Part shown: positions 1-14,900 of the stretch, in pieces | Layout: each line of letters starts with the position of its first letter | Numbering within the stretch: position 1 is the stretch's first letter | Source of the DNA: Moorella sp. Hama-1 | Lineage (GTDB): Bacteria; Bacillota; DSM-521; Neomoorellales; Neomoorellaceae | Reading direction: 5' to 3' | NCBI RefSeq assembly: GCF_023734095.1 | Contig: NZ_AP024620.1 | Span: forward strand, 2,228,501-2,292,500 | DNA length: 64,000 bases | Position numbers and translations under genes: made by a program | Notes under the pieces: model-generated | What the model saw: the letters and a program-made list of their open reading frames with translations, nothing else | The model's database searches: none | What the model was told of the DNA's origin: nothing

Positions 1-88
1 CGGGATTATCCTCGTCCTGGGGGGTGTCTGCCTCTCCTTGAGGCAGCCCGGGGGGCGACAACAGGCGAAAAAAGCACACCAGCAGTAA
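1..88 (+). CDS. C-terminal end of a membrane protein, possibly an EamA/DMT-type transporter (partial)
   Basis: An open frame enters from the left edge and stops with TAA at 86-88. The visible 28 residues begin with a hydrophobic run (GIILVLGGVCLSL) and end in a basic, polar tail. A last transmembrane helix with a short cytoplasmic tail is typical of DMT/EamA permeases, but the fragment is too short to prove the family. A strong terminator overlaps the stop. Confidence 0.4.
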   Translation, partial: GIILVLGGVCLSLRQPGGRQQAKKAHQQ

Positions 89-130
89 GGGCTTCCCCCT
101 GGGGAAGCCCTTACTGCTGGCTGTTTTTTA
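80..130. terminator. Bidirectional rho-independent terminator
   Basis: A perfect 19-bp stem (80-98 with 101-119) with a 2-base loop is followed by a T run at 124-129 on the plus strand and by an A run upstream (68-73), which is a T run on the minus strand. It separates the convergent transporter fragment and malQ and can serve both. Confidence 0.9.
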
Positions 131-131
131 C

Positions 132-2258
132 TCATATATCAGCGCCCCAAGTTTCCCTCCGCAGGCGATTTATCTCCTCTAACAGGGCCACTACTCCGGG
201 TAGCCGGCTGAACTCCTCCAGGCTGTACCTGGCCCGACGCTGCCAGTTGGGATACTCGGCTACGGTACCGGGGATATTCTGGGGTTCCGTCTCCAGCCAC
301 AGGTCCTCCAGGTTTACCGACAGTAAACGCGCCGGGCTGGCGGCCAGGTGGGCTAGGGAGGCCCTTAGGAGGCTGGCCGTAGCCGTCGTGGGCAGCTCCA
401 GGTGGCCCTGGTTATAGAGGAAGATGGGCAGGGCCGCCCGCTGACGGCCTCGTTTCCCCCGCCAGAAGGCGGCAAAGGGCGGCATATCGTGGGTATTCAA
501 GCTGGCCAGGCTCCTGGTGGCAACCGGTGGCAAGGCCCGGCGCGGTTTTCCGGTATACTCGGAGGACAGGACATACATACGGTAGATGTTGTGCCGGGCC
601 ATGGCCCGGCGGACGTAAGCCGGGACGGTGCCCAGGTCCTCCCCTACCAGGAGGGCCTGGTGGCGCCGGGACTCCAGGCTCAAAATGGCGTAGAGTTCCC
701 TGGCGTGGTAGCGCACATAGACTCCTTCCCTGGCTGTCAGGCCGCCGGGGATCCAGTAGAGGTGGTGCAGCCCCATGACGTGGTCCAGGCGCAAGATGCC
801 GGCGTGGTGCAAGTGCTGGCGCAGGCAGGCGCGGTAGTAGCGGTAGCCATCCAGCCGGATTCCCTCCGGGTGCAGGGGCGGAAAGCCCCAGTCCTGCCCC
901 TGACGAAAAAAGGTGTCGGGAGGAGCGCCACTGCTGGCTGTTGTGGCAAAGGCCTGGCGGTAGCGCCAGACGTCATACCCTGCGCCGTGGACTCCCAAGG
1001 GGAAGTCCAGGTATAAACCCGGGCCGCTACGCCGGGCTACGGCGGCTACCTCCTGCAGCTGCCGGTGGGCCTGCCACTGGACGTAGAGATGGTACTGCAG
1101 GGCTTCCAGATGGTAATCGCCCTCAGCGAGGTTACCCTCCCGCATCCGGGCGGGCCAAGCCGGCCAGGTGGCGTGCTGTTTCTCCACGGTGGCCCGGAAG
1201 CGAGCATAATCCAGGGCCTCCGGGCGGCCGGCCAACCAGCGCTGGAGCTCTTCCTGTCCCCCGGGATAGGCGCTGAAGAAGCTGCGGGCGCAGACCTCCA
1301 GGAGGCGGCGTTTCAGGGCCATGCCTCGGCGGTAGTCCACCAGGGGCGCGGCCTGCAGGGAGGCTATCTCCTGCCGGACCGCCGCCGTATTATAAAGCTC
1401 CTGGGCCTCCGGGCAGCGCCGGGCTTCTTCCAGGCGGGAGGTATCCAGATAAAACTCGTTCCAGAAAAGGCGGCTGGCGGGCTGGTAGGGGCTGGGGGCG
1501 AAGGGCTCGTCCAGGAAGACCGCCAGGAGGGGCAGGGTGCCGGTAAAACCGGCACCCTGGCTGCCGGCCCAGCGTACCAGGGCCTCCAGGTCGCCGAAGT
1601 CCCCGGCCCCCTGGCTACTGCGGGTATGGAGGGCATAGAGGGGGAGGAAACACCCCCAGAGGCGCTCCTCCTTCCCGCCCCTGCCCGGGCTGCTTACCCG
1701 GCCCTTTCCATCCTCAAGATGGCCAGGGGTACTCCTCCCGGCCAGGTCCCAGGCCCGGGAGGGGGCGGCAATGACCAGGACCTCCCGGGTACGGCCGGCC
1801 AGGTGCAAATGGAGGTTATGGTAACCCCACGGCAGCCCGGCGGGCAGGGTAAGCTGCCGGGCTGTAAAGGTCACCCCTTCTATTGTGGCCGTCCGGGTCA
1901 GGGGCAGGCGGTCCGGCTCAAGGACCCACCGCCGCAGCCGGCCGTCCTCCAGTTGCAGCCGGCACTCCAGGGGGGCCGCAGCCTGTCCGGCCGGCAGGCG
2001 CAGTTCCATCCGGGCCGGCCGGCCGGACCAGGCAACCACTACCGGTTCGCAAAGAACACGCCAGTACTGTTGTCGCCGCTCCCGCAGGGCGCCGGGAACG
2101 GCTGCCAGGCCGCTTACCGGCGCCCCCAGGGCCTGCAAAACCGCCAGTAACGACTCCGGGCCGGCAACCCGGAGTCTTCCTTCCACATCGCGATAGGCCG
2201 TTTCCACACCATACCACCGGCACAGCCGGTGCAAAAGACGGAATTGTTTCCATTCCAT
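132..2258 (-). CDS. malQ: 4-alpha-glucanotransferase (amylomaltase)
   Basis: GH77 disproportionating enzyme that transfers maltooligosaccharide units between glucans in the cytoplasm. About 708 residues, like E. coli MalQ (about 694). The first 200 residues form the extra N-terminal domain of long MalQ proteins. The GH77 barrel shows RLDHVMGLHHLYW near residue 490 (nucleophile Asp), VGEDLGTVP near 540 (acid/base Glu) and LNTHDMPPF near 590. The open frame runs upstream to 2417, but that part overlaps the CBS gene. ATG at 2258, preceded by GGTGGTGAT and 13 bp after the CBS stop, is the credible start. Last gene of the minus-strand glycogen cluster. Confidence 0.93.
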   Translation of the reverse strand: MEWKQFRLLHRLCRWYGVETAYRDVEGRLRVAGPESLLAVLQALGAPVSGLAAVPGALRERRQQYWRVLCEPVVVAWSGRPARMELRLPAGQAAAPLECRLQLEDGRLRRWVLEPDRLPLTRTATIEGVTFTARQLTLPAGLPWGYHNLHLHLAGRTREVLVIAAPSRAWDLAGRSTPGHLEDGKGRVSSPGRGGKEERLWGCFLPLYALHTRSSQGAGDFGDLEALVRWAGSQGAGFTGTLPLLAVFLDEPFAPSPYQPASRLFWNEFYLDTSRLEEARRCPEAQELYNTAAVRQEIASLQAAPLVDYRRGMALKRRLLEVCARSFFSAYPGGQEELQRWLAGRPEALDYARFRATVEKQHATWPAWPARMREGNLAEGDYHLEALQYHLYVQWQAHRQLQEVAAVARRSGPGLYLDFPLGVHGAGYDVWRYRQAFATTASSGAPPDTFFRQGQDWGFPPLHPEGIRLDGYRYYRACLRQHLHHAGILRLDHVMGLHHLYWIPGGLTAREGVYVRYHARELYAILSLESRRHQALLVGEDLGTVPAYVRRAMARHNIYRMYVLSSEYTGKPRRALPPVATRSLASLNTHDMPPFAAFWRGKRGRQRAALPIFLYNQGHLELPTTATASLLRASLAHLAASPARLLSVNLEDLWLETEPQNIPGTVAEYPNWQRRARYSLEEFSRLPGVVALLEEINRLRRETWGADI

Positions 2259-2271
2259 CAAGTTATCCCTA

Positions 2272-2628
2272 TCACCACCTGGCCATGGCGGCCACAATAT
2301 CGGACCGGCTGATGATCCCCACCAGGCGGCCCTTATTATAGACCGGCACCCGTTTAATCCCCTTTTCATGCAGGACAGCAGCCACCCTCTCCACCGGATC
2401 GTCGGCATCGACACCAACGACTTCCCTGGTCATAATGTCGCGCACCCGGTGGCCGTTGGTTAAACAAAGCAAATCCCTTTCGCTGACAATACCTACGACC
2501 CGACACTCGCCATCGCAAACCGGTACCCCACTGATCCCGTTTTCGGCCAGCAACCTGGTTAATTCATAGATCCTGGCTTCAGGGTCAATAGTAATCACTT
2601 CAGTCGTCATAATATCCCTGGCCCGCAT
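2272..2628 (-). CDS. CBS-domain pair protein
   Basis: A protein of 118 residues that is almost entirely two CBS motifs (a Bateman module): residues 1-57 (MRARDIMTTEVITI to RDLLCL) and 60-118 (VRDIMTREVVGV to SDIVAAM). Such modules bind AMP, ATP or SAM and regulate partner proteins. No catalytic domain is attached. A good ribosome site (AAAGGAGG) precedes ATG. Its place between glucan phosphorylase and malQ suggests energy-state sensing for glycogen turnover, which is inference. CBS pairs are also often unrelated to their neighbours. Confidence 0.9.
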   Translation of the reverse strand: MRARDIMTTEVITIDPEARIYELTRLLAENGISGVPVCDGECRVVGIVSERDLLCLTNGHRVRDIMTREVVGVDADDPVERVAAVLHEKGIKRVPVYNKGRLVGIISRSDIVAAMARW

Positions 2629-2646
2629 GTTGTTAACCTCCTTTCC

Positions 2647-5208
2647 CTACCCCCACAGGATCAGGCCGCTCTGGTAGGGGTAAGCCTGGTCTTCATGGCG
2701 GGGCAAAACCAGCAGGTTGTAACCCTGGCGCCCCCCCTGGCGACAGGGTATCGTCCCGCTATACAAATACCTTCCTCCACCCCTGTCCTGGTAGTCAGCC
2801 AGTTCCATCCTCTCTCCGGCCGTAATCTCGCCGCCGGGACCAACCGGACCGTAATAGAGTTCCACCGCCACCTCCTCCGGTTGCAGGGAGCCCAGGTAGA
2901 TCCGGGCCTGCACCTTTAAACTATCACCTGCCACCACATCGCCTTCCCGGTCATCCGTGATTTCCTCGATCTTTAGCGCCGGCCAGGCCCCCCGCACCCG
3001 GCTCCGCCAGGCGGCCAGTTTCCTGGCTCGTTCCAGGTTGCCGGCCTGCAGGCGCCGGTAGAGACCGGCCACCGGTACATAAAACTGCCGGCTATATTCG
3101 CTAACCATACGCTGGGTATTAAAGGCCGGGGCATAGGCCTTAATGGATCTCTTCATCATATCCACCCAGGCCACCGGTAAATTGCTGCCGTCGCGCTCAT
3201 AAAAGAGGGGGATGATCTCCTTTTCCAGCAGGTTATAAAGGGCTTCCCCTTCCAGGGCGTCCTGGTAGCCGGCATCGGCGTAAACCTCACCGGAGCCAAT
3301 GGCCCAACCGGTAGCCGGCGTCCAGGCTTCGGCCCACCAACCGTCCAGGGTGCTGGCCTGGAGGGCGCCATTAACGACCGCTTTCATGCCGCTGGTGCTG
3401 CTGGCCTCCAGGGGCCGGCGCGGGTTACCCAGCCAGACATCGACCCCCTGGACCAGGTAACGGGCCACCTCCAGGTCGTAATCCTCCAGGAAGACCAGGC
3501 GGCCGCGGAAGGCCTCGGTTGCAGTGAGGGCCGTGATCTGCTGGATGAGCTGCTTCCCCTCTTCATCCCGGGGATGGGCCTTGCCGGCATAAATAATCTG
3601 CACGGGCCGCTGCCGGTCCCCCAGGATTCGGGCCAGGCGCTCGGCGTCGCTGAGGAGAAGGGCCGGCCGCTTATAGGCGGCGAAGCGCCGGGCAAAGCCA
3701 ATAGTTAGGGCTCCGGGGTCGAAAAATTCTTCTAGGGCGGCTATTTCCCTGGGCCCCGCCCCCCATCCTTGCAGCTGCCGCGCCAGCCGCCGCCGGGCAA
3801 AGGCCTGGAGCTCCCGACGCTGCTCTTCGTGGGCCTGCCAGAGTTCCCGGGCAGGTATTCCTTCGACTCCGTCCCAGGCGCCCGGGGAGGCCGGGTCATC
3901 CCGCCAGGCTGTTCCCAGGTAGCAGTCGTAAAGGGCGGCCATCTGGGGCCCCACCCAGGACGTGGTGTGGACGCCGTTAGTAATGGCACCGATGGGGACG
4001 GCCTCGACCGGCAATCCCGGCCAGACAGACTGCCACATTCTCCGGGCCGTCTGGCCGTGGAGCTGGCTGACGCCGTTGGCCCGGGCCGAGAGGCGCAGGG
4101 CCAGGACGGCCATGTTAAAGGGCTCCTGCTGGTTATTGGGGTCCTGCCGGCCCAGGGCCAGGAACTCCTGGCGGGAAAGACCAAGGGCCTGGTAATAATC
4201 GGTGAAGTATTTATCCATCAGGTAAGGAGGAAAGATGTCAATGCCGGCCGCCACGGGGGTATGGGTGGTAAAGATATTGCTGCTGGCCGCCAGTTCCCGG
4301 GCCGTCCCTGGATCCAGGCCGTATTGCTCCTGTAATTGACGCATCCGCTCCAGCACCAGAAAGGCCGAGTGTCCCTCATTGAGATGGTAGATGCTGGCGT
4401 CAATACCCAGGGCCTGCAGGGCGCGTACACCGCCTATCCCTAAGATTATTTCCTGCTGGATGCGCTTCTCCAGATCGCCGCCATACAGCCGGTCGGTAAT
4501 CATCCGGTCCTCCTTCAGGTTACCAGGGCAGTCGGTGTCCAGGAGGTAGAGGTTGAGACGACCGACCCGGGCCCGCCATACCCTGGCCTCCACCTGGCGA
4601 TCCGGATCGGGAAAGGTTACCCGTACAGTCAGGGGCTTACCCCCGGGCTGGCGTTCTGCGACCAGGGGCAGCTGGTAAAAGTCGTTATAGGGGTAAATCT
4701 CCTGCTGATGTCCCTGGCGATCAAGGCGCTGGTGGAAATAACCCTGGCGATAGAGCAGACCCACACCCACCATGGGCAGGCCCAGATCGCTGGCCGACTT
4801 CAGGTGATCGCCGGCCAGGAACCCCAGGCCCCCGGCGTAGATGGGCAGGGCCTCACTGAGGCCGAATTCGGCGGAAAAATAGGCAATAACCGGGTCGCCG
4901 TCCGGGCCGTGGCGCCGGCTCCAGTTGACCGGTGGAGCGATGGCAGTCTGGTGCTGCTGCCATACCCGCTCCAGCCGGGCAATATAGCCGGGGTCTCCGG
5001 CTACTTCCTGGAGCCGGGCCGCTGGTAAGGACATCAGTAAAAGGACGGGGTTATGATCGGTTCTCTCCCACTCGCCAGGATCCAGGTCGCGGAAGAGGGC
5101 CGCCGTTTCCAGGTAGCGGGGCCAGTAAAGGTTATAGGCCAGTTCCAGAAGGGGCTTTAGTTTTTCCGGTAACGAGGGCTGGACGATAAAGGTATGGGGT
5201 GAGGGCAT
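2647..5208 (-). CDS. glgP: Alpha-glucan (glycogen) phosphorylase, DUF3417 type
   Basis: GT35 phosphorylase releasing glucose-1-phosphate from glycogen or maltodextrin with pyridoxal phosphate. 853 residues. The N-terminal 100 residues (PLLELAYNLYWPRY) match the DUF3417 extension of the thermophile/archaeal-type alpha-glucan phosphorylases. The PLP-lysine region is SSTSGMKAVVNGALQASTLD around residue 610, and GGLGFLAGDHLKSASDLG lies near residue 135. The start ATG follows AGGAGAGACGAGG. Stop is 18 bp upstream of the CBS gene, so these are probably co-transcribed. Confidence 0.93.
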   Translation of the reverse strand: MPSPHTFIVQPSLPEKLKPLLELAYNLYWPRYLETAALFRDLDPGEWERTDHNPVLLLMSLPAARLQEVAGDPGYIARLERVWQQHQTAIAPPVNWSRRHGPDGDPVIAYFSAEFGLSEALPIYAGGLGFLAGDHLKSASDLGLPMVGVGLLYRQGYFHQRLDRQGHQQEIYPYNDFYQLPLVAERQPGGKPLTVRVTFPDPDRQVEARVWRARVGRLNLYLLDTDCPGNLKEDRMITDRLYGGDLEKRIQQEIILGIGGVRALQALGIDASIYHLNEGHSAFLVLERMRQLQEQYGLDPGTARELAASSNIFTTHTPVAAGIDIFPPYLMDKYFTDYYQALGLSRQEFLALGRQDPNNQQEPFNMAVLALRLSARANGVSQLHGQTARRMWQSVWPGLPVEAVPIGAITNGVHTTSWVGPQMAALYDCYLGTAWRDDPASPGAWDGVEGIPARELWQAHEEQRRELQAFARRRLARQLQGWGAGPREIAALEEFFDPGALTIGFARRFAAYKRPALLLSDAERLARILGDRQRPVQIIYAGKAHPRDEEGKQLIQQITALTATEAFRGRLVFLEDYDLEVARYLVQGVDVWLGNPRRPLEASSTSGMKAVVNGALQASTLDGWWAEAWTPATGWAIGSGEVYADAGYQDALEGEALYNLLEKEIIPLFYERDGSNLPVAWVDMMKRSIKAYAPAFNTQRMVSEYSRQFYVPVAGLYRRLQAGNLERARKLAAWRSRVRGAWPALKIEEITDDREGDVVAGDSLKVQARIYLGSLQPEEVAVELYYGPVGPGGEITAGERMELADYQDRGGGRYLYSGTIPCRQGGRQGYNLLVLPRHEDQAYPYQSGLILWG

Positions 5209-5242
5209 CCTCGTCTCTCCTATCCACCTTGAAAATAGAGGC

Positions 5243-8032
5243 CTAACCGGCCATCAGGGAATGGTCCTGCCGGACGTCCCGGTAGAGGGCCAGGGTCCGG
5301 CGGGCGACAGCCTCCCAGGTATAATCCCGGTAAACCCTGGCCTGGCCATTACGGCCCAATTCGGCGGCCACACCGGGGTTCTGGAATATGGTAACCAGGC
5401 AGCGTTCCAGGTCGGCCACATCCCCGGGGTTAAAGGTCAAACCGGTGCGCTTGTCTTCGACCACCTCGGCCAGGCCGCCTGTCCGGGAGACAATCACCGG
5501 TACCCCGGCAGCCATGGCCTCCAGGGCGACAATGCCAAAGGGCTCATAAAGACTAGGGAAGACGGCCACCCGGGCACGGGCCAGCAGCTGGTTACGCACT
5601 TCCTCGGAAACAAAGCCGGTAAACTCCACCCGGCCGGCCAGGCCCAGGTTGCCGGCCAGGTTTTGCAGCTCAGTGGCGTAGGGTCCGGCCCCGGCGACGA
5701 TTAACCTGGCTGCCGGGTAGAGGTGCTGCAGCCGGGCCAGGGCGGCCAGGAGGACCTGGACCCCTTTCTCTACCACCAGGCGGCCAATAAAAAGGATAGT
5801 CTGGCCCTCCCGGCCAGGGGTCACCGGGGGCATGGCCCGGACGCCGTTGGGGATCACGGTTAGCGCCGCCCCGGGCTGGAACAGGCGGCGAATTTCCTCT
5901 TCCATATAGCGGCTGCAGCAGATTAAGCTGTCGGCTCCGGCCACCAGCCCGGCCTCTATATAGTTGATGGCCTGCTGGATGCGGTTATGGAGACCGTGGT
6001 TGCGGCCGGCTTCGGTGGCGTGGATGGTGGCCACCAGGGGGGTGCCGGTCGTCTCCTGGAGTTCCCGGGCCCCGTAGGCCACCAGCCAGTCATGGGCGTG
6101 GAGCAGCCACTCCCTCCCCGGCGCCGCGGCCAGCACCTCCCGGCCGGCATCGGCCAGGGCCAGGTTAAACTGTAGGACCCAGGAAAGGAAATCGATCTCC
6201 TGCTCCGGCTGCTGGTAGGTAGGCACGTAGTGCAGGTAAACGCCTTCCTGGATGGTTGACGACCTTTCCCCGCCTGGGGACCGGGTCAGGACGTGGACCT
6301 CCACCCCCTGGCGGGCCAGGGCCTGGCTGAGATCCCGGACGTGAATGCCCAGGCCGCCCACATGGTGGGGCGGGAATTCCCAGCTGAGCATGAGAATCGC
6401 CGGTTCCCTTTTATTATGAACTACCGGCCGCCCGGCTACTCCCGGCCCGGCCTGCCGGTAGAGGCGAAAGTCCAGGTGGGGGAAGATATTGTTCCTGTTC
6501 TCCAGGCCGGCCAGGAAGTCCCTGTCCAGGCGGTTGTGTTCAAAATCACGGCAGATTCTAAAAAAGTTGTCCAGATGCTCAAGGAGCCGCCGCCGGGCAT
6601 ACTCCACCGTCGTCCCGGTAGTCAGGATGAAGGGCCAGTCGCTGCTCTGGGCCAGGAGCAACTCCCGGGCGGCCTGGTTCAGGGCCCGCTCCTGCAGGGA
6701 ACCCGGCTGGGGGTTAACGGCGGCCAGTTTGATCAGGGCCTGCTCGGCCCGGTGGAGATGGGGATAAGCCCAGTCGTTGGCCGGGTTCAGCCAGACGCGG
6801 TTATAGCCCCCTTCACCCCAGCTGGAGGGCCCCATGGTCACCTCCTGGTGGGGCGGGTGCTGTTCCAGGTAGGCCCCCGGAGTCGTGAGGCTGACCCTGC
6901 CGGCTGCCTGGCGCAGGACATCCCCCAGCCAGTCCGGCCCCTCAAACCACCAGTGGCCAAAGAGTTCGGCGTCATAAGGGGCGACGACAATGGGCTGAAC
7001 GGGGATTTCCCCGGACCAGTAGCTCAGCTGGCGCTCCCGGTTGGCGATAAAGTCCCGGGCGTGTTCCCGGGCCCGTTCCCGGGCGGCCTGGTAGTCGTAG
7101 GGCTCCTTGGCCTCGGTTTTACCGGTGATGCGGTAGTATTTAAAACCAGTATCCCCCCGGACACCGCCGACCAGGTAAGGCTCCAGATAATTAAAGTCCA
7201 GGTCATAACCGATATCCCGGTAGAATTCGCGATAAGCCGGATCCCCGGGGTAGCCCTCCGTCCGGCTCCAGACCTGATGGGAAGTCTCCCAGTCCCGGCC
7301 GAAGGCCGCCACGCCACCCACTTTGACCGGGGCATAAACCGCCGTGGTTACCGTCGGGACGGCACCCAGCATACCATGGCTGGCGACGATAAAATACTTA
7401 ATCCCCTCGGCCTGTAATATTTTTTCCACGCCCGGGGTATAACCGCACTCCGGCAGCCAGATACCTGCCGGGGGGAAACCCATGGTAGCGCTGAAGAGAT
7501 CCAGGGCGACCCGCACCTGGGCCCGCCTGGCCGTATCGGTAAGCATCAGGGGCAGGTAACCGTGGGTGGCGGCAGTAGTGATCAGCTCCAGGTGTCCCTG
7601 CTCCCGTAACTTTTTTAAGGGCGCCAGCAAATCGCCCTGGTAGTTCTCTTTATAGGCCCGGGTGACGGCCGCCAGGCGCCGATGATAAAACTCCGCCAGG
7701 GGAGCGAAGGCCGGGTCGTGCCGGGTGCGCTCGATTTCCCGGCCCGCCAGTTCCAAGAGGTTATCCAAGTAACGACCGTAGCGCTCCCGGAGGGCAGGTT
7801 CGACTAACATGCTGATCAGGGGGGGCGACAGGGAGAGGGTGAGGCGAAAGTCTACCCCTTCGGCGGCCAGATGTTCCCAGTTTAAGGTGAGGGGCAGGTA
7901 GGATTCCGTCAGGGCTTCAAAGAGCCACTTCTCCTCCAGGCTAGTATAAGACTCCTGGTTGTGGACAAAGGGCAGGTGGGCGTGGAGGAGCAGGGCGAGG
8001 TAACCGGGATTATTTCCTATACTGGCGACCAT
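5243..8032 (-). CDS. Fusion of GH57 1,4-alpha-glucan branching enzyme and GT4 glycosyltransferase (glycogen synthase-like)
   Basis: One continuous frame of 929 residues holds two enzymes. Residues 1 to about 530 are a GH57/DUF1957 branching-enzyme module: catalytic Glu195 in GIWLPECGYTPG, Asp354 in APYDAELFGHWWFEGP, then the helical C-terminal part. Residues from about 544 (ILMLSWEFPPHHVGGLGIHV) to 929 are a GT4 glycosyltransferase with the GGLG donor loop and the EPFGIVALEAMAAG E-x7-E motif. The fusion could elongate and branch glycogen in one polypeptide. No separate glgA, glgB or glgC is in the window. Ribosome site AGGGAGGT precedes ATG at 8032. The sugar donor (ADP- or UDP-glucose) cannot be told from sequence. 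Confidence 0.9.
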   Translation of the reverse strand: MVASIGNNPGYLALLLHAHLPFVHNQESYTSLEEKWLFEALTESYLPLTLNWEHLAAEGVDFRLTLSLSPPLISMLVEPALRERYGRYLDNLLELAGREIERTRHDPAFAPLAEFYHRRLAAVTRAYKENYQGDLLAPLKKLREQGHLELITTAATHGYLPLMLTDTARRAQVRVALDLFSATMGFPPAGIWLPECGYTPGVEKILQAEGIKYFIVASHGMLGAVPTVTTAVYAPVKVGGVAAFGRDWETSHQVWSRTEGYPGDPAYREFYRDIGYDLDFNYLEPYLVGGVRGDTGFKYYRITGKTEAKEPYDYQAARERAREHARDFIANRERQLSYWSGEIPVQPIVVAPYDAELFGHWWFEGPDWLGDVLRQAAGRVSLTTPGAYLEQHPPHQEVTMGPSSWGEGGYNRVWLNPANDWAYPHLHRAEQALIKLAAVNPQPGSLQERALNQAARELLLAQSSDWPFILTTGTTVEYARRRLLEHLDNFFRICRDFEHNRLDRDFLAGLENRNNIFPHLDFRLYRQAGPGVAGRPVVHNKREPAILMLSWEFPPHHVGGLGIHVRDLSQALARQGVEVHVLTRSPGGERSSTIQEGVYLHYVPTYQQPEQEIDFLSWVLQFNLALADAGREVLAAAPGREWLLHAHDWLVAYGARELQETTGTPLVATIHATEAGRNHGLHNRIQQAINYIEAGLVAGADSLICCSRYMEEEIRRLFQPGAALTVIPNGVRAMPPVTPGREGQTILFIGRLVVEKGVQVLLAALARLQHLYPAARLIVAGAGPYATELQNLAGNLGLAGRVEFTGFVSEEVRNQLLARARVAVFPSLYEPFGIVALEAMAAGVPVIVSRTGGLAEVVEDKRTGLTFNPGDVADLERCLVTIFQNPGVAAELGRNGQARVYRDYTWEAVARRTLALYRDVRQDHSLMAG

Positions 8033-8226
8033 ACGGCAACGTTACCTCCCTAAATTTTTCTTTCCCGACTGCAGATGACGGATATACCCAGGGGGCCTAG
8101 CAGACGGCAAGGCATAGAAAGCCTCCCATCCGCCAGCTATCATCCCTCCCGTCCGGGGCCGGTGCACCAAAAAATACTGTCGCGAGACCGACCGGCAGCC
8201 AGTACAGTCCGGTGGACCAGGATTCG

Positions 8227-8682
8227 TTAGGACCAGTTAAAATTGCTGCTGGGCGGCTGATTTTCCAGGGGGATTGTCCAATTGAGCCTCAAACCCGGCG
8301 TTGTCAGAGAGTCGCCCTCCGGTTCCGCCAGTTTAACTGGCTGCAGCCGGATAATCCCCGTGCGGGAAAAGACGACAAACTCCCCCGCCGGGCTCCGGGC
8401 GCCCAGCTCCAGGTGATAAGCAGCCCGGGCATCCAGATCATGAAAATAGCAGCTTCCTGGCCCCACCCCCCCCTGTTCCAGGATAACTTCCCGGTCCGGC
8501 TGGTGGTTATCATGGCTACAAAGACGCAGGGCAAGCTGCATCTCTGGCCTTACCCGTTGTAAAAAATCCACCAGGGTGCGGATCCGTGCGGGAGTAAAAT
8601 CCCAGTAGACATAGCAAGTGTGCTGGTCCTGGGGCAGGCAGATCAGGGCATTTTGATGGTAGCCAGAAGCTAGATCGAGCAC
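8227..8682 (-). CDS. DUF4912 domain protein
   Basis: 151 residues starting with GTG (GAGGGG just upstream). The segment DQHTCYVYWDF near residue 20 and the later YHLELGARSPAGEF resemble the DUF4912 family, a small beta-rich fold common in Firmicutes beside GH57 and glycosyltransferase genes. It is the first gene of the minus-strand glycogen cluster, about 195 bp before the GH57-GT4 fusion. Function is unknown; a role in glucan binding or enzyme organisation is only suggested by position. Confidence 0.75.
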   Translation of the reverse strand: MLDLASGYHQNALICLPQDQHTCYVYWDFTPARIRTLVDFLQRVRPEMQLALRLCSHDNHQPDREVILEQGGVGPGSCYFHDLDARAAYHLELGARSPAGEFVVFSRTGIIRLQPVKLAEPEGDSLTTPGLRLNWTIPLENQPPSSNFNWS

Positions 8683-8717
8683 GGGTTTCGCCCCTCTTAA
8701 TATAGTCTTAATATTCT

Positions 8718-8737
8718 TTACTGTAACTTAACAGTAA
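8718..8737. promoter_or_regulatory. Candidate operator: perfect inverted repeat before the glycogen cluster
   Basis: TTACTGT and ACAGTAA form a perfect 7-bp inverted repeat around 6 bp (AACTTA). It lies 35-55 bp upstream of the GTG of the DUF4912 gene, in AT-rich DNA (8690-8765) between divergent genes. A further half-site ACAGTA lies at 8759-8764. The symmetry suggests a dimeric repressor site, regulator unknown. The only promoter-like hexamers nearby are weak. Confidence 0.4.
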
Positions 8738-9180
8738 TTATAACTAATAGATTTTAATACAGTATATCATATTCCTGAGCGCCAGTCAAGTAGCCCGCCG
8801 CCTTGCTTTTTGCTAAATTCTGGTCCATAATAGATTCTACAGCTCCAGTCTGCCATTTGCAGGTTTTTATAAGTCCAGTTACCCCCTTCCGGCGACCGCT
8901 CCCAAACCGGATGGACTCCAGGGGCGATACGTTTAATCGCCAGTACCATGACGACAGCCACGCCGTCAAAAACCATGTTTATCTTATGAGGAACACCGCC
9001 TCGGCAGAACTACTTCACCGGAAAAACTGTTACAATTTAATTGGCCGGTATGCTTATACTAATAAGGCTAAAGCCAGCGGCTCACTGCGCGGCTTAGCAT
9101 CGCTATCTTGTTCCGAACATCTTACCGCAAAAATATTCCAGATGGGCCTGACGGGCCCTTGCACATCAGGAGGGTTTGCT
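8738..9180. other. Long leader of the GH13 gene; no gene seen
   Basis: About 440 bp between the operator and the GH13 start. The reading frame of the GH13 gene stays open back to 8803, but the translation there (rich in Arg, Ser, His) has no family resemblance and no ribosome site. A TATACT hexamer at about 9054-9059 may be a -10 box for the plus-strand gene. No riboswitch was recognised. Confidence 0.35.
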
Positions 9181-10941
9181 TTGCTCCACCACCGCCCCAG
9201 CCCCCGTTTCTGCCAGCCCCTGGCACCCGACCGGCTCCTCCTGCGTTTAAAGACCCGCCGCAGGGAAGGGCAGCACTGCCAGGTTATCTATGAAGACGAA
9301 GGCCTGCAAACGGCCCCCATGTATATCTATGCCCGGACACCCCATTATCTCTATTACCAGGCTGAGGTCAACCTCTCCTATCCCTGGCGCTGCTCCTACT
9401 TTTTCCGGCAGCAGGACCAGGAGGGCCATATTCGCTATATCTTCGCCGGTGTTACCGGCCAGGAGGGCACCCCTTTTACTTATAACTGGGATCCCGCGGC
9501 TATCTTTACCATTCCTGAATGGCTCTATGACGCCGTGTTTTATCAGATCTTCCCCGACCGCTTTTATAACGGCAACCCGGCCAACGACCCGCCGGGAACC
9601 CGGCCCTGGGGGGAAGCTCCTACCAGGGAAAGCTTCTCCGGCGGCGACCTGGAGGGCATCCAGGCCAAGATCCCCTATCTCCGGTATCTCGGCGTCAATG
9701 CCCTGTGGCTCAACCCTATTTTTGCCGCCTCCTCCAACCACCGTTACAACACCAGGGACTACCTGACCATCGACCCGGCCCTGGGGGATACGGATACTTT
9801 GCGCCGCCTGGTGGCCGCCCTCCACGGCGCCGGCCTGCATATTATCCTGGATGGCGTCTTCAACCATACGGGGACCGATTTCTTTGCCTTTAAGGATGTA
9901 GTCGCCCGGGGGGCGGCCTCCCCCTATAAGGACTGGTATTACTTCCATGACTTCCCGGTGCGAAGCGCGCCCCGGGCCAACTATGCCTGCTGGTGGGATA
10001 TCCCCGAGCTACCCAAACTCAACGCCGGCAACCCCGAGGTCCGCAATTACCTCCTGCACGTGGCGACTTACTGGCTGTGGGATGCCGGCACCGACGGCTG
10101 GCGCCTGGACGTGCCCAATGAGATCGCGCCCCCCTTCTGGCGGGAGTTTCGCCAGCAGGTAAAAGGCACTAACCCCCAGGCCTACATCGTCGGTGAGATC
10201 TGGCGCGACGCCCGTTTCTGGCTGGGCGACCGCTACTTCGACGGGGTGATGAACTACCTCTTCCGTGATCTGATCCTGGCCTTCTTTGCCCAGAGGCGTT
10301 TCCCTATCTCCACCCTGGATCTCCTCCTGGGCCTGGTGCGCCTGCGTTACCCGGAGGCAGCCAACTTCGCTCTCCTAAACCTCCTGGGCAGCCATGACAC
10401 GGCACGGATTATCACCGCCTTCCAGGAAGACCTGGCCGGCCTACCCGGCCATTCCGGCAGTTACGCCGAGGCCGTGGCCCACCTGCGGCCGGCCTTAATC
10501 CTGCAGCTCACCTATCCCGGCGCCCCCCTCATCTACTACGGCGACGAGGTCGGCCTCACCGGCGGCCCGGACCCCGATTGCCGCCGGACCATGCCCTGGG
10601 AGCCCCGGGAGTGGAACCGGGAGCTCCTGGATTTCTACCGGCGCTTGATTGCCCTGCGGCGCCAGCTGCGGCCCCTGCGGTGGGGCTTCTTCCAGCCCCT
10701 CTTTACCGACGACCAGGCCGAGGTCTATGCCTATGCCCGGCGCCTGGAGGGGGAGCGGGTAATCATTATTATCAATGCCAGCGACCTGCCCCAGACGGTT
10801 ACCCTGGCGGCAGCCGGCGTGGATCTGGCTGATGGCAGCACCTGGCATGATGGCATCAGCAACCGCCTCCTGGAGGTGCAGGGTGGCCAGATCAGCTTGC
10901 CCCTGGATGCTAACTCCGGGGCCATCCTCTACCAGGATTAG
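9181..10941 (+). CDS. GH13 alpha-amylase family enzyme, neopullulanase/cyclomaltodextrinase type
   Basis: Cytoplasmic-type GH13 glucan hydrolase. The start is TTG at 9181 because AGGAGGG stands 6 bp before it; this gives 586 residues, the usual size of the neopullulanase/cyclomaltodextrinase group. Residues 1 to about 115 form the N-terminal beta domain (VIYEDEGLQTAPMYIYARTP). The barrel has DGVFNHTGTDF, the nucleophile in GWRLDVPNE (about 309), the acid in GEIW (about 338) and LLGSHD (about 406). No signal peptide is seen. Divergent from the glycogen genes; it probably trims maltodextrins released from glycogen. Exact substrate unproven. Confidence 0.9.
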   Translation: MLHHRPSPRFCQPLAPDRLLLRLKTRRREGQHCQVIYEDEGLQTAPMYIYARTPHYLYYQAEVNLSYPWRCSYFFRQQDQEGHIRYIFAGVTGQEGTPFTYNWDPAAIFTIPEWLYDAVFYQIFPDRFYNGNPANDPPGTRPWGEAPTRESFSGGDLEGIQAKIPYLRYLGVNALWLNPIFAASSNHRYNTRDYLTIDPALGDTDTLRRLVAALHGAGLHIILDGVFNHTGTDFFAFKDVVARGAASPYKDWYYFHDFPVRSAPRANYACWWDIPELPKLNAGNPEVRNYLLHVATYWLWDAGTDGWRLDVPNEIAPPFWREFRQQVKGTNPQAYIVGEIWRDARFWLGDRYFDGVMNYLFRDLILAFFAQRRFPISTLDLLLGLVRLRYPEAANFALLNLLGSHDTARIITAFQEDLAGLPGHSGSYAEAVAHLRPALILQLTYPGAPLIYYGDEVGLTGGPDPDCRRTMPWEPREWNRELLDFYRRLIALRRQLRPLRWGFFQPLFTDDQAEVYAYARRLEGERVIIIINASDLPQTVTLAAAGVDLADGSTWHDGISNRLLEVQGGQISLPLDANSGAILYQD

Positions 10942-11010
10942 GCCTCCATGCCTGCACGCAGCTAAAGTTTTTCCCGTAACCGTTACCGGAAGGCTGCAGG
11001 AGGTCAGATA

Positions 11011-11058
11011 GAAAAACTTCAGGGGAGCCCCCGTGCGGGTGCTCCCCTGAAGTTTTTC
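11011..11058. terminator. Bidirectional terminator between convergent genes
   Basis: A perfect 18-bp stem (11011-11028 with 11041-11058) whose outer ends are GAAAAAC and GTTTTTC. The T tract is therefore inside the stem base on both strands. It separates the GH13 gene from the convergent stalk-domain protein. Confidence 0.85.
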
Positions 11059-11084
11059 TGTATACGAGCTGTTTGCTGCATTTC

Positions 11085-11819
11085 CTATTGCTGTGGACCG
11101 GGCAGGATGTCGACTTCGGCGCCGTCATCGGCCGCTTGCTGGTAATTAACCTCCTGCCGCAGGGCCTGGCTGACAAAACGTAAGGGTACGAAGGTGGAGT
11201 TGCTGATTAACTGGGCCGGCACGTCGAGTTCCTGAACCTCACCGTTAATAGTGAAAACCCGGCTGTCCAGGGCGAGCTTGATTACCGTATCACCTTTAGT
11301 TATGGTAATGGTGCTGGTCTCCGGGTCCCAGTCCACCGTTGCCCCCAGGCCGTTACAGAGGGCCCGTACCGGCACCAGGGTGCGCCCTTCTTTGATAACC
11401 GGCGGAACGGGCCACTGGACTTCCTGGCCATGGAGGCGGACATGGACCCTGGCTTTAACCTGGAGTTTTACATCCAGGCCCTTATTCCCCGTAGCCTTGT
11501 AAACCTGCTGGCAGACACTATCATCCCGGCAGCTGCCGTCCCGCAGGCGCTCGCGTTCCTGGTCACGCTCCTGGTCCTTAATGCCAGTAGTACCATATAC
11601 CTGCTGGCAAATACTATCCTCGTCCAGGCAGCTGCCATCCCGCAAACGCTCCCGATCCTGATCCATATCCTGTTGTTGAGCCACCTGTTGCAACCATGCC
11701 TGCTGCCCGGTCATTTGGCCCTTGCCCCCCGCCCAATCCGGCGGCGCCGCCATGGCCGTCAGGCTACCAGCCAGGGTAAAAGCCAGGATCAAAGCTCCCA
11801 CTCTTAACTTTTTCATCAT
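11085..11819 (-). CDS. Exported protein with copper-amine-oxidase N-terminal-like (stalk) domain
   Basis: 244 residues. A Sec signal peptide occupies residues 1-24 (LRVGALILAFTLAG, cut near AMA-AP). The middle contains a duplicated acidic/basic segment: RERLRDGSC-LDEDSICQQVY and RERLRDGSC-RDDSVCQQVY, about residues 56-78 and 88-110, each with two cysteines. The C-terminal 110 residues (KEGRTLVPVRALCNGLGATV to NSTFVPLRFVSQALRQEV) match the stalk domain PF07833, a cell-surface module of Firmicutes. It is not itself a copper enzyme. Probably cell-wall attached or secreted; ligand unknown. Start is one of two tandem ATG codons. Confidence 0.8.
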   Translation of the reverse strand: MMKKLRVGALILAFTLAGSLTAMAAPPDWAGGKGQMTGQQAWLQQVAQQQDMDQDRERLRDGSCLDEDSICQQVYGTTGIKDQERDQERERLRDGSCRDDSVCQQVYKATGNKGLDVKLQVKARVHVRLHGQEVQWPVPPVIKEGRTLVPVRALCNGLGATVDWDPETSTITITKGDTVIKLALDSRVFTINGEVQELDVPAQLISNSTFVPLRFVSQALRQEVNYQQAADDGAEVDILPGPQQ

Positions 11820-12239
11820 TAATTAAATGCTCCCCTTTCATTATTGTCAGCTACCACCTTAGCCAATCAGCGCGATTAACACGGGTATATCGCTTTACCC
11901 CAATTACTTACCTTACTCTACAGCAACTTTCTTCCTCCCGGCCAGGAGCTTTCATTATATATATCGGCCAGATAAATATTTTTTCAAGGGTAGTTCCCGC
12001 AATGAAGCCTTTGTGTTAAACTTATTCTGGATTAAGAACGAGCCCCTCAGATAACATATAGCTGCCAATGGAAGCATCTGGGGGCGTGAGGCTATACTCG
12101 GCCTCCACGCCAGGTAAAAATGCCGCTGCCGGTAAAAAGGCTCAAAATCCAGGCCGGCACTATGAGGAGTTATTTCTGAGTAGCCCTTCATGGGGCTAAC
12201 GCCCCCACCAGACACATCCCACTTTGGGGAGGCACCATC
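11820..12239. other. Intergenic region between divergent genes; short hairpin only
   Basis: 420 bp with no coding frame that I trust. Near its right end (12185-12212) a GGGGC...GCCCC hairpin with flanking CTTCAT and CACCAG resembles a hairpin at 52465-52493 upstream of ytrH, suggesting a small dispersed element. Promoters for the stalk protein (minus) and the deacetylase (plus) must be here, but none is clear. Confidence 0.35.
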
Positions 12240-13286
12240 GTGAAAAGAAAAGCCGCTATCGTCATTGCTCTATGCCTGCTCCTGTCCATGCCCTTTGCCA
12301 TTACCCAAATAGCTTCCCGCTTTAGCCGCAGCCCGGCTGCTCCCCCTACTGCTGCTAACGAGAATGTCAAACCGCCCACCCCTGCCCAACCTGCTACCGC
12401 TGCTACCCCTGCAACCGGACCGGCCCAGCTGGCCAGCTGGTCTTCCAAGGAGATTTACTACCAGAATAAGGTCGTCGTCCTGATCTATCACCATATCGAC
12501 GTCCAGGAAGCACCCGGCCTGATAATCTCCCCGGAACGCTTCGCCAGCGAGCTGGATATGCTCCTGGCCAGGGGTTATCACGTCATCAGCCTGGATCAGT
12601 TGCGGGATTTCTTAAATGGCGGTACTGTGCCCGATAACGCTGTCCTGATTACCTTTGACGACGGTTACGAAAGTGTCCACCAGTATGCCCTGCCGGAGTT
12701 ACAAAAAAGACAGATGCCGGCCGTCGCCTTTGCCATTGTGAAATATGTGGGGCAAAAGATGGGCAATCTCCAGCATTACAGCTGGGAGGGAGCCCGCGAG
12801 ATGACCGCCGCCGGTATCACCACCCAGTCCCACACCTATGACCTGCATAACTTCGGTCCCCTGGCCAGCGGTAAAAACGGCCCACTCCTGGACGGGCCCC
12901 TCAAGGGACAGAGCGCCAGTGACTACCGCAACATGGTTTACCAGGACTTGAAGCGCTCCCGGGATGAGATCGAAAGCCAGCTACAGCAGCCGGTTTACGC
13001 CCTGTGTCTACCCTTTGGCGCCGGCGGCCATATAGCCATCCAGGCCGCCGCCGATGCCGGCTTTAGGCTCATCTTTACCACCCACTATGGCGTCGTTACC
13101 CGCCGGAGCAATCCTCTGGCTCTGCCCCGGGTCAATGCCGGCGGCCCGAATATGACCCCGGCCAAGCTGGACGCCCTCATCAAGGCTGCTGCCGGGGTGA
13201 ACCCCATCCCCCAGGAGCAGCCCGCGAAGCCAGCTGCTCCCCATGGGGGAGTGGTGGTGTCTGGTAAAAAGGCAAAGCGGATTTAA
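12240..13286 (+). CDS. Polysaccharide deacetylase (NodB homology), membrane-anchored or exported
   Basis: 348 residues, GTG start after GGGGAGGC. A hydrophobic segment at residues 5-22 is a signal anchor, followed by an Ala/Pro/Thr linker to about residue 62. The NodB domain carries VVLIYHHID, the LITFDDGYESV catalytic/metal Asp motif and TTQSHTYDLHN with the metal histidines. It should remove N-acetyl groups from peptidoglycan or another surface glycan outside the cell. The short tail is Ala/Pro/Lys-rich. Stand-alone gene; a separate promoter lies just downstream for cbiM. Confidence 0.88.
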   Translation: MKRKAAIVIALCLLLSMPFAITQIASRFSRSPAAPPTAANENVKPPTPAQPATAATPATGPAQLASWSSKEIYYQNKVVVLIYHHIDVQEAPGLIISPERFASELDMLLARGYHVISLDQLRDFLNGGTVPDNAVLITFDDGYESVHQYALPELQKRQMPAVAFAIVKYVGQKMGNLQHYSWEGAREMTAAGITTQSHTYDLHNFGPLASGKNGPLLDGPLKGQSASDYRNMVYQDLKRSRDEIESQLQQPVYALCLPFGAGGHIAIQAAADAGFRLIFTTHYGVVTRRSNPLALPRVNAGGPNMTPAKLDALIKAAAGVNPIPQEQPAKPAAPHGGVVVSGKKAKRI

Positions 13287-13367
13287 GGAGGTAAGTAGCA
13301 GGAAATAGTAATCCTCCCCAATGCAAGAGATGGGTGCCGGTTATCGCGGCATCCCGGCATTTTCCCC

Positions 13368-13396
13368 TTGCACCGGAGCCCATATACCGGTATAAT
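13368..13396 (+). promoter_or_regulatory. Candidate sigma-A promoter for the cbiMQO leader
   Basis: TTGCAC (13368-13373), 17-bp spacer, then a perfect TATAAT (13391-13396). Predicted transcription start near 13403, immediately in front of the structured leader and 235 bp before cbiM. Confidence 0.55.
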
Positions 13397-13402
13397 GGAG
13401 AG

Positions 13403-13505
13403 GCAGGGTGCTAAAAAAGGCCCTGAACGATGGAACAGGTAGGCCATGTAGGCCTGCTGGCCCGCCAGGAGGCGGGTTGGTAGCCCCATGGCCTTTTTTC
13501 GTTGG
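13403..13505 (+). ncRNA. Structured leader of cbiMQO with a terminator-like end (unassigned riboswitch or attenuator candidate)
   Basis: Within about 100 nt of the predicted start lie AAAAAAGGCC (13413-13422) complementary to GGCCTTTTTT (13490-13499), GGCCATG (13442-13448) complementary to CATGGCC (13487-13493), and an inner hairpin CCCGCC-AGGA-GGCGGG (13461-13476). The right arm runs into a six-T tract, so this is a terminator that could be formed or disrupted by alternative pairing. I see neither a cobalamin B12 box nor a recognisable NiCo riboswitch core. Its position before a cobalt/nickel transporter suggests metal or cobalamin control. Confidence 0.5.
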
Positions 13506-13637
13506 CCACGGGGGACGAAAGTATCTCCCGTACCTATCAGGAAAGCCTCCATATAGGCGAGGTGTACATTTTAAGGCAGTATATGCCTATGGCTTTCGTA
13601 TAATGGGTACGGGCAGTGAGTCAAGGAGGTATAGCGA

Positions 13638-14747
13638 GTGCATATTCCCGACGGTTACTTAAGTCCCCAGACCTGCGCCGTCCTGGGGGCGGCCATGGTG
13701 CCGGTGTGGGGCATGGCCGCCCGCAAGGTCAAAGCTACCCTGAAGGCCAGGCAGGCGCCCCTCCTGGCCATCGGCGCCGCCTTTTCCTTCACCATTATGA
13801 TGTACAACATCCCCATCCCCGACGGGACAACGGCCCACGCCACCGGCGGTGCCCTCCTGGCTATCCTCCTGGGCCCCTGGGCGGCGAGTATTGGCATCTC
13901 CATCGCCCTAGCCATCCAGGCCCTCTTCTTCGGCGACGGCGGCATCCTGGCCTTCGGCGCCAATGCTTTTAATATGGCCTTTATCCTACCCTTTGCCAGT
14001 TACTACCTCTACCGGCTCCTGACCGGGAGGACGAGCCTGACGTCCGGCTGGCGGGCCATAGCGGCGGCCGTAGCCGGTTTTGTCGGCCTTAACCTGGCCG
14101 CCCTGGCGGCAGCGGTGGAGTTCGGCCTCCAGCCCCTCCTTTTCCACACGGCCGGCGGCGTACCCCTCTACAGTCCTTACCCCCTGAACATGGCCGTCCC
14201 AGCCATGGCCCTGGCCCACCTCCTGGTGGCCGGCCCGGCCGAGGGGCTAATCACCGGCCTGGTGGTCCGTTACCTGCAGCGGGTTAATTCCGGCCTGCTC
14301 CGGCTCTACCCGGCGGGCAATGGTAACCGGGCGGCCGGCCCGGCGGTAGCGGCAGGTACGTTGGCGAATAGGCAGGAGATTATATCCCCGGCGGCAAACA
14401 GCAGTTTTGGCCTGAAGAAGCTCGCCCTGGGGCTGGTAATCCTCGTCCTGCTGTCGCCCCTGGGACTCCTGGCCGCCGGCACCGCCTGGGGTGAGTGGTC
14501 GCCGGAAGACCTGCAGCAAATCCTCGGTTTCGTGCCCCCGGGTCTGGCCCGCCTGGCCACCACCTGGACCCATACCCTCTTCCCGGACTATACTGTCCCC
14601 GGCCTGGAAGGAAGCTTCCTGGCCCAGGCCCTGGGGTATATCCTGGCAGCCGCAGCAGGCCTGGCTATAATCTTCCTTATCTTCCTGGCCCTGAACAGGT
14701 TACTATTCCGGCCGGGTAAGGCTGGTACCGGTTACAATGGTAAGTAG
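13638..14747 (+). CDS. cbiM: ECF-type cobalt/nickel transporter substrate-binding subunit, CbiM fused to a PDGLE (CbiN-like) domain
   Basis: 369 residues, GTG start after AAGGAGGTATAGCGA. It begins MHIPDGYLSP, the classical CbiM/NikM N-terminus in which the amino group and His2 ligate Co or Ni. Seven or so hydrophobic helices follow to about residue 235. A second part (residues about 255-365, SPLGLLAAGTAWGEWSPEDL) has the PDGLE/CbiN-like organisation with two helices around a periplasm-side loop, so no separate cbiN is needed. First gene of cbiM-cbiQ-cbiO. Cobalt supports corrinoids; nickel is an alternative substrate. Confidence 0.92.
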   Translation: MHIPDGYLSPQTCAVLGAAMVPVWGMAARKVKATLKARQAPLLAIGAAFSFTIMMYNIPIPDGTTAHATGGALLAILLGPWAASIGISIALAIQALFFGDGGILAFGANAFNMAFILPFASYYLYRLLTGRTSLTSGWRAIAAAVAGFVGLNLAALAAAVEFGLQPLLFHTAGGVPLYSPYPLNMAVPAMALAHLLVAGPAEGLITGLVVRYLQRVNSGLLRLYPAGNGNRAAGPAVAAGTLANRQEIISPAANSSFGLKKLALGLVILVLLSPLGLLAAGTAWGEWSPEDLQQILGFVPPGLARLATTWTHTLFPDYTVPGLEGSFLAQALGYILAAAAGLAIIFLIFLALNRLLFRPGKAGTGYNGK

Positions 14748-14900
14748 GGGCCGGCATAGCGGCCTGGCGATGGGCAGGAAGATGACAAGGGGTTGTCAGT
14801 GGTAAATAAAGGGGCCGGCACAGCGACTCTACCGGTGCGCAGGAGGGTGGTGGCGGTTATCATGGCCTCAACCGGGCAAAGAAGGGCGGCGGGAATTTTC

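Follow-up and report, generated by a model that had tools for sequence, protein, structure and literature searches.

The stretch of DNA analysed here, hereafter the window, comprises 64,000 nucleotides of the Moorella sp. Hama-1 genome (NCBI RefSeq assembly GCF_023734095.1, contig NZ_AP024620.1) and is part of a closed 3.32-Mb contig. On its reverse strand lies an open reading frame (ORF) for a protein of 929 residues, in which a GH57 module with a BE_C domain is followed by a GT4 glycosyltransferase module; the fusion is accompanied by genes for a DUF4912 protein, an alpha-glucan phosphorylase, a protein with two CBS domains and the 4-alpha-glucanotransferase MalQ (Table 1). A sequence-only reading of the window had placed both modules in one frame without a stop or frameshift, with Glu195 and Asp354 in the GH57 part and the motifs GGLG and EPFGIVALE in the GT4 part. 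The same picture is recovered here: the ORF starts with ATG and has no internal stops, and the residues and motifs lie at E195, D354, 559–562 and 830–838.

Table 1. The GH57–GT4 fusion, its parts and the neighbouring genes (positions in the window; residue numbers refer to the fusion protein)
Feature	Position	Strand	Basis and remarks
GH57–GT4 fusion protein, 929 aa	5243..8032	-	ATG ORF, Pfam, relatives
GH57 catalytic domain (residues 13–307, Pfam extent)	7112..7996	-	Glyco_hydro_57 (PF03065), 114.9 bits, above cut-off; nucleophile E195 inside, acid D354 just past the domain end
BE_C domain (residues 425–525)	6458..6760	-	Pfam PF09210, 123.4 bits, above cut-off
Linker (residues 526–544)	6401..6457	-	Sequence variable; pLDDT <50 at 530–538
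GT4 glucosyltransferase module (residues 545–924)	5261..6400	-	VGGL, HATEAGRN, GRLVVEKG, EX7E
DUF4912 protein, 151 aa	8227..8682	-	GTG as start codon; lies 195 nt upstream of the fusion; FN3-like sandwich (predicted)
Alpha-glucan phosphorylase	2647..5208	-	TIGR02094, 833 bits; DUF3417 at the N-terminus; follows the fusion directly
Two-CBS-domain protein, 118 aa	2272..2628	-	Conserved in the operon
4-alpha-glucanotransferase MalQ (GH77)	132..2258	-	Start taken as the ATG at 2258, not the TTG of the longest ORF
GH13 amylase/cyclomaltodextrinase-like gene, divergent	8803..10941	+	Relatives of ~585–640 aa suggest a start further downstream

In addition to the two domains of the GH57 half, the curated Pfam cut-offs are exceeded in the GT half by Glyco_transf_4 (residues 558–731) and Glycos_transf_1 (residues 744–898). 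The four residues E195, D354, E830 and E838 are invariant in an alignment of 29 fusions. An AlphaFold2 model of the whole protein shows two confident domains (mean pLDDT 91.4) on either side of the low-confidence linker, and its pTM of 0.62 implies that they have no fixed mutual orientation, which suits a linker acting as a flexible tether rather than as a channel. The claim that a single polypeptide carries both modules, which are usually separate proteins, holds, with complete catalytic and donor-site residues in each and with conservation of the two as a fusion.

The top solved relative of the GH57 half is AmyC of Thermotoga maritima (437 bits), and a Foldseek comparison of the predicted model with AmyC gives 41% identity across 526 columns. 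AmyC has been moved to the branching enzymes, with hydrolysis of up to 30%, and the branching-enzyme residues aligned here are, in its numbering, H10, H12, W29, E185, Cys186, R237, D349, W402, W411, S462 and D463 (PMC6616209). Their equivalents in the fusion are H17, H19, W36, E195, C196, R246, D354, W405, W414, S464 and D465, all invariant in the 29 fusions; the roles have been assigned by alignment to AmyC and TK1436, with C196 as the Cys of conserved sequence region 3 (CSR-3). The GH57 half thus presents the features by which AmyC-type GH57 branching enzymes are recognised, namely the GH57 and BE_C domains, the Glu nucleophile, the Asp acid, the CSR-3 Cys and the groove residues. The long catalytic loop with a Tyr tip found in TK1436 is not present in the alignment: the enzymes of Pyrococcus horikoshii and Thermococcus kodakarensis carry an insertion there relative to the fusion, and AmyC does not. 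Such a loop is reported to be lacking in 92% of GH57 branching enzymes (PMC10346327). Since it is missing, the GH57 half is expected to branch weakly, and to combine this with noticeable hydrolysis and alpha-1,4 transfer.

With regard to the GT half, two assignments have been ruled out. A GT5 GlgA is rejected by the score against TIGR02095 (97.5 bits, cut-off 328.45), and GlgM by the scores against TIGR02149 (147 and 151.5 bits, cut-off 302.4) as well as by the lack of GlgE in the genome. TIGR02149, which we take to be the family to which GlgM belongs, is the best NCBIfam match of the GT4 half, below its cut-off. The residues described for the donor sites of GlgM and GlgA, His109, Asn171, Arg207, Lys212, Glu289, Gly292 and Ile293 (PMC7137382), have counterparts in H671, N729, R751, K756, E830, G833 and I834 of the fusion, which are invariant in the 29 fusions; seven of the eight listed GlgM residues could be placed in the alignment and all seven are kept, Val146 being the one without a placement.

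The closest unfused counterpart found is an adjacent GH57–GT4 gene pair of Mycobacteriales. The plasmid collection yielded only two matches, in Tsukamurella tyrosinosolvens and Nocardia farcinica, in both of which a GH57 gene stands next to a GT4 gene in the order of the fusion, the two proteins jointly covering 96% of it at about 35% identity. The Tsukamurella cluster consists of etfA and etfB on the opposite strand, a methyltransferase gene, GH57 and GT4, with a gap of 1 nt between the last two, and in Nocardia there is a 4-nt overlap between the GH57 and GT4 ORFs. Over 396–406 aa, these GT4 proteins and the GT4 half have 39% identity, and they have HATE.GR, GRL..EKG and EPFGIV in common, the first motif reading HATEAGRH in the former versus HATEAGRN in the fusion. 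By their gene order, we take these clusters to correspond to the Rv3028c–Rv3032 region of Mycobacterium tuberculosis, and by similarity and signature the GT4 half can be assigned to the Rv3032 type. Rv3032 has been described as an alpha-1,4-glucosyltransferase for which UDP- and ADP-glucose are thought to be donors (PMC2674218, PMC4981310), and Rv3031 as a potential branching gene of the methylglucose lipopolysaccharide (MGLP) locus (PMC2674218, PMC4555173, PMC4981310). The pair shares with the fusion the two families, their order and strand, the GH57 catalytic residues and, in GT4, EX7E and the donor residues. It differs in consisting of two separate genes and in its surroundings, with a methyltransferase gene upstream in Tsukamurella, whereas the Moorella operon has phosphorylase, CBS and MalQ genes instead.

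The survey of the architecture's distribution that the sequence-only reading had proposed shows a full-length open fusion in 10 of the 22 genomes of the order (the class comprises the identical set), a split or broken one in three (G013, G011 and G015) and none in the remaining nine. At the level of the genus, the fusion is intact in seven of 11 genomes, split or broken in two and lacking in two. In a draw of 398 genomes from the phylum, with two candidates scored per genome, 36 genomes have a full-length single-frame fusion (37 loci, as G005 contributes two), and incomplete copies are found in G160, where a contig end cuts the gene, and in the split G013. Full-length relatives are 46–83% identical to the window fusion. 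Among the matches listed, the named carriers include Moorella mulderi, which is the closest (73% identical), Pelotomaculum propionicicum, Thermincola ferriacetica, Desulfoscipio geothermicus, Paenibacillus tyrfis, Fictibacillus norfolkensis and an Alicyclobacillaceae bacterium. Against three relatives, Nei–Gojobori dN/dS is 0.14–0.17 for the GH57 half and 0.16–0.22 for the GT4 half, values that point to purifying selection on both. A sequencing error, which the earlier reading had named as a possible source of the fusion, and a chance read-through are ruled out by these full-length relatives, and the dN/dS values agree. With regard to the damaged copies, the reading frame of the one in G013 (L037:8290–11081) shifts by one base some 36 residues after the start of the GT4 half, which splits it, and that in G011 (L038:9554–11526) is a broken fusion.

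Phylogenetic trees of the two halves are consistent with a single old fusion whose halves have travelled together, which neither tree rejects, the clade being beyond doubt in neither. The trees were built after removal of duplicate loci and of broken or partial copies, which left 84 of 136 GH57 rows and 75 GT4 rows (74 in a second build). One branch of the final GT4 tree separates 39 fused or once-fused rows from 35 others, with a Shimodaira–Hasegawa-like approximate likelihood ratio test (SH-aLRT) value of 90, which becomes 95.8 without the long-branched Fictibacillus row. For GH57, a tree holding 38 fused or once-fused rows together has a likelihood 37.6 units above that of a quick free search, with a p-value of 0.906 in the approximately unbiased test (p-AU). 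The first quick trees required three changes of the fused label for GT4 and four for GH57, as against about 25–28 in shuffles, and these few changes are due to Fictibacillus, the broken G013 copy and one weakly placed row. Moreover, every column that is at least 90% conserved both in fused and in stand-alone sequences has the same residue in the two groups (38 versus 29 for GT4, 38 versus 97 for GH57), in a comparison without the rows of the broken L037 copy and without six distant GT4 sequences (L092, L098, L119, L129, L130 and L134). The fusion is thus expected to have both activities of the separate pair and to bring them to one particle.

The sequence-only reading had also stated that no separate glgA, glgB or glgC accompanies the fusion, which is true of the window and not of the genome. 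Elsewhere, the genome encodes a pair of GalT and GT5 GlgA (GlgA frame of 504 aa), a stand-alone GH57 paralogue of the branching type (51% identical) with its own DUF4912 gene upstream, and a stand-alone GT4 paralogue (48% identical). A substitution for missing glycogen genes is not supported, given these three, and because they are present the fusion is a clade-restricted extra route. No GlgC was found in the genome at the family cut-off (best match 112.9 bits, cut-off 424.9); GH13-type GlgB is likewise lacking, with no PF02806 match in this genome and control matches in eight of 14 genomes, as is GlgE, with no PF11896 match and control matches in Corynebacterium glutamicum. A GalU-like gene of the same genome (L036:14171–15079), presumably encoding a UTP-glucose-1-phosphate uridylyltransferase, has a counterpart in L087 that is 65% identical. 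The combination of a GalU-like gene with no GlgC at the cut-off suggests UDP-glucose as the likeliest donor.

The operon order DUF4912–fusion–GlgP–CBS–MalQ, together with the divergent GH13 gene, is kept in most of the Moorella loci read, and no methyltransferase gene is among the conserved operon genes of these loci. Exceptions are G013, which has no visible CBS gene, and L039, where DUF4912 and the fusion have no GlgP behind them. L039 and L040 are the two diverged full-length fusions of G005, and GlgP–CBS–MalQ follows only one of them. Outside Moorella, the four named fusions at L085–L088 are followed instead by a protein that has, or resembles one that has, nucleotidyltransferase, hexapeptide and phosphosugar-mutase domains, the three domains having been scanned in L033 and L087 and assigned by likeness in the others; in L087 and L088 a GH15 gene comes next. 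This type of neighbourhood could possibly be a set leading from glucose phosphate to polymer. The multidomain protein, which adjoins the fusion in other Bacillota and has about 800–860 aa (L085:8832–11240, L087:8847–11267, L088:8790–11201 and L033:7049–9640), is a candidate for a one-chain enzyme supplying nucleoside diphosphate glucose, and in stand-alone loci it is often encoded between the GH57 and GT4 genes.

The DUF4912 gene is not particular to the fusion. Where 700 nt or more of sequence precede the GH57 gene, its immediate upstream neighbour in the same orientation is a DUF4912 ORF at 35 of the 36 fused loci and at 80 of the 82 stand-alone ones (115 of 118), as counted with a profile built from an alignment whose rows came from such loci. 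When 36 candidate ORFs outside the profile seed, themselves selected with that profile, were scanned with Pfam, 35 matched DUF4912 and nine also matched Glucodextran_B. The window protein itself matches PF16258 with 44.4 bits (cut-off 29.4), and among the control genomes PF16258 matches were obtained in Bacillus subtilis, Synechococcus elongatus and T. maritima, all three of which also have GH57 matches. The arrangement upstream of AmyC-type GH57, as in the window, recurs at loci L083–L162, which are labelled as Bacillota, Omnitrophota, Verrucomicrobia, Elusimicrobia, Deltaproteobacteria, Methylococcaceae and others. The sequence-only reading had proposed that the DUF4912 and CBS proteins form a regulatory set; both are indeed conserved members of the operon, but DUF4912, being linked to AmyC-type GH57 whether fused or not, looks more like a partner of this enzyme than a regulator of the fusion operon. 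The model of the window's DUF4912 protein (pLDDT 81.9) is a sandwich with mostly FN3 domains as its best solved matches, with a best Foldseek E of 2.2e-4 and a best VIA Z of 9.1 over 94 residues at 3.5 A, middling Z values being common. A glucan-binding or docking subunit would be our guess. In the literature searched, the only mention of DUF4912 is in a study on cotton callus.

Taken together, we regard it as probable that the fusion is a bifunctional elongating-and-branching alpha-glucan synthase, probably fed by UDP-glucose, which would provide an extra glycogen route beside GlgA. The GT4 module would extend alpha-1,4 chains at their non-reducing ends with glucose taken from a nucleotide sugar, and the AmyC-type GH57 module would cleave such chains and transfer the pieces to form alpha-1,6 branches, while hydrolysis and alpha-1,4 transfer would also occur to some extent. 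Being flexible, the linker would hold both active sites at the same glucan particle, so that each new branch end could be an immediate substrate for elongation, and the phosphorylase and MalQ of the Moorella operon would take the polymer apart again. The CBS protein may sense adenylates, and DUF4912 would be a general partner of AmyC-type GH57, possibly its glucan-binding or docking subunit. Beside what has been computed (the fusion, its conservation, residues and neighbours, and the fit to a single origin), this reading contains parts that we infer, namely both activities, the donor, the co-localised action and the roles of CBS and DUF4912.

Several points weigh against such a synthase. Loop-less GH57 enzymes branch weakly (10.5 mU/mg for that of T. 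maritima versus 480–550 for the looped one of T. kodakarensis) and hydrolyse more (PMC10346327), and one study found Rv3032 to contribute little or nothing to bulk glucan (PMC4981310). Solved GT4 relatives, such as sucrose-phosphate synthase, MshA and GlgM, take varied acceptors, so the sequence does not tell which acceptor the GT4 half uses. With regard to the donor, the absence of GlgC rests on a bit-score cut-off, and a nucleotidyltransferase of another type could make ADP-glucose. Furthermore, the fusion has been lost or broken in four of the 11 genomes of the genus, which, with the separate GlgA, GH57 and GT4 kept, argues that it is dispensable.

There is a small chance that the GH57 half is mainly a chain-trimming or chain-transferring enzyme (an amylase or alpha-1,4 glucanotransferase), and that the fusion works together with phosphorylase and MalQ in turning over maltodextrin, not in the net synthesis of glycogen. 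AmyC, with its short loop, reaches up to 30% hydrolysis (PMC6616209), the T. maritima enzyme yields mostly linear elongated chains (PMC10346327), and the operon partners are catabolic. Such a role would, however, leave unexplained why a GT half with an intact donor site is conserved, and the protein adjoining the fusions at L085–L088 speaks for supply, not breakdown. It seems improbable that the product of the GT4 half is a small molecule or a special oligosaccharide, such as maltose-1-phosphate or a glucan like the methylglucose polysaccharides, in which GH57 would place one alpha-1,6 link. The methyltransferase–GH57–GT4 cluster in which the closest unfused pair sits would suit this, as would the best NCBIfam match of the GT4 half, TIGR02149, the family to which we assign GlgM; the scores, however, stay far below the cut-off of that family, neither a GlgE gene in the genome nor a methyltransferase gene among the conserved operon genes accompanies the fusion, and phosphorylase and MalQ act on longer glucans. 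The M. tuberculosis counterpart of that cluster is tied to MGLPs. That the fusion is a decaying duplicate with no present role is very improbable: it is split by a frame change of one base in G013, broken in G011 and G015 and absent from G009 and G012, but both halves have low dN/dS, the catalytic columns are all invariant in the 29 fusions and G005 keeps two copies.

For the bifunctional synthase, a more far-reaching version is conceivable although doubtful, in which one chain makes glycogen with UDP-glucose as its donor and no need of ADP-glucose, the tether governs the branch density, and the synthase is part of a wider module whose DUF4912 protein is an obligate, hitherto unassigned subunit of AmyC-type branching enzymes across many bacterial phyla. 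Each half has a known relative. T. maritima AmyC (TM GBE57) shares with the GH57 half the short catalytic loop and the catalytic and groove residues, and differs in being a lone protein of 528 aa (PDB 2b5d) without a glycosyltransferase half. GlgM, the GT4 maltose-1-phosphate synthase (6tvp), has the GT-B fold and the donor-site residues of the GT4 half, with an identity of 26–28%; the GT4 half differs in scoring below the TIGR02149 cut-off, and the Moorella genome has no GlgE. Known fusions of glucan enzymes are TreS–Mak and the GlgB–MalQ of Neisseria suica (Chem Rev 2024); they likewise combine two successive glucan steps on one chain, with other enzyme families and other steps. No description of a GH57–GT4 fusion was found in the accessible parts of PMC6629080 or PMC11046441, most of the subscription literature being outside the search. 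Both halves and the unfused pair were already known.

The role in glycogen metabolism of GT4 proteins encoded near GH57 genes is named as an open point in Chem Rev 2024, and the fusion bears on it. If both activities are real, the ratio of elongation to branching, and hence the branch density of glycogen, could be studied at a fixed 1:1 stoichiometry, and a single chain with both functions could serve directly as a tool to produce branched alpha-glucans. Additionally, the linkage to GH57 gives the DUF4912 family a testable role.

In the remainder of the region, no RNA element was matched by Rfam at the gathering threshold in window positions 1–14000. A predicted exported protein of 244 aa is encoded at 11085–11819, and its C-terminal end carries what we take to be a copper-amine-oxidase-N-like repeat. 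Further along, at 13638–16632, there are CbiM/CbiQ/ATPase-like genes, apparently those of a cobalt or nickel ECF transporter.

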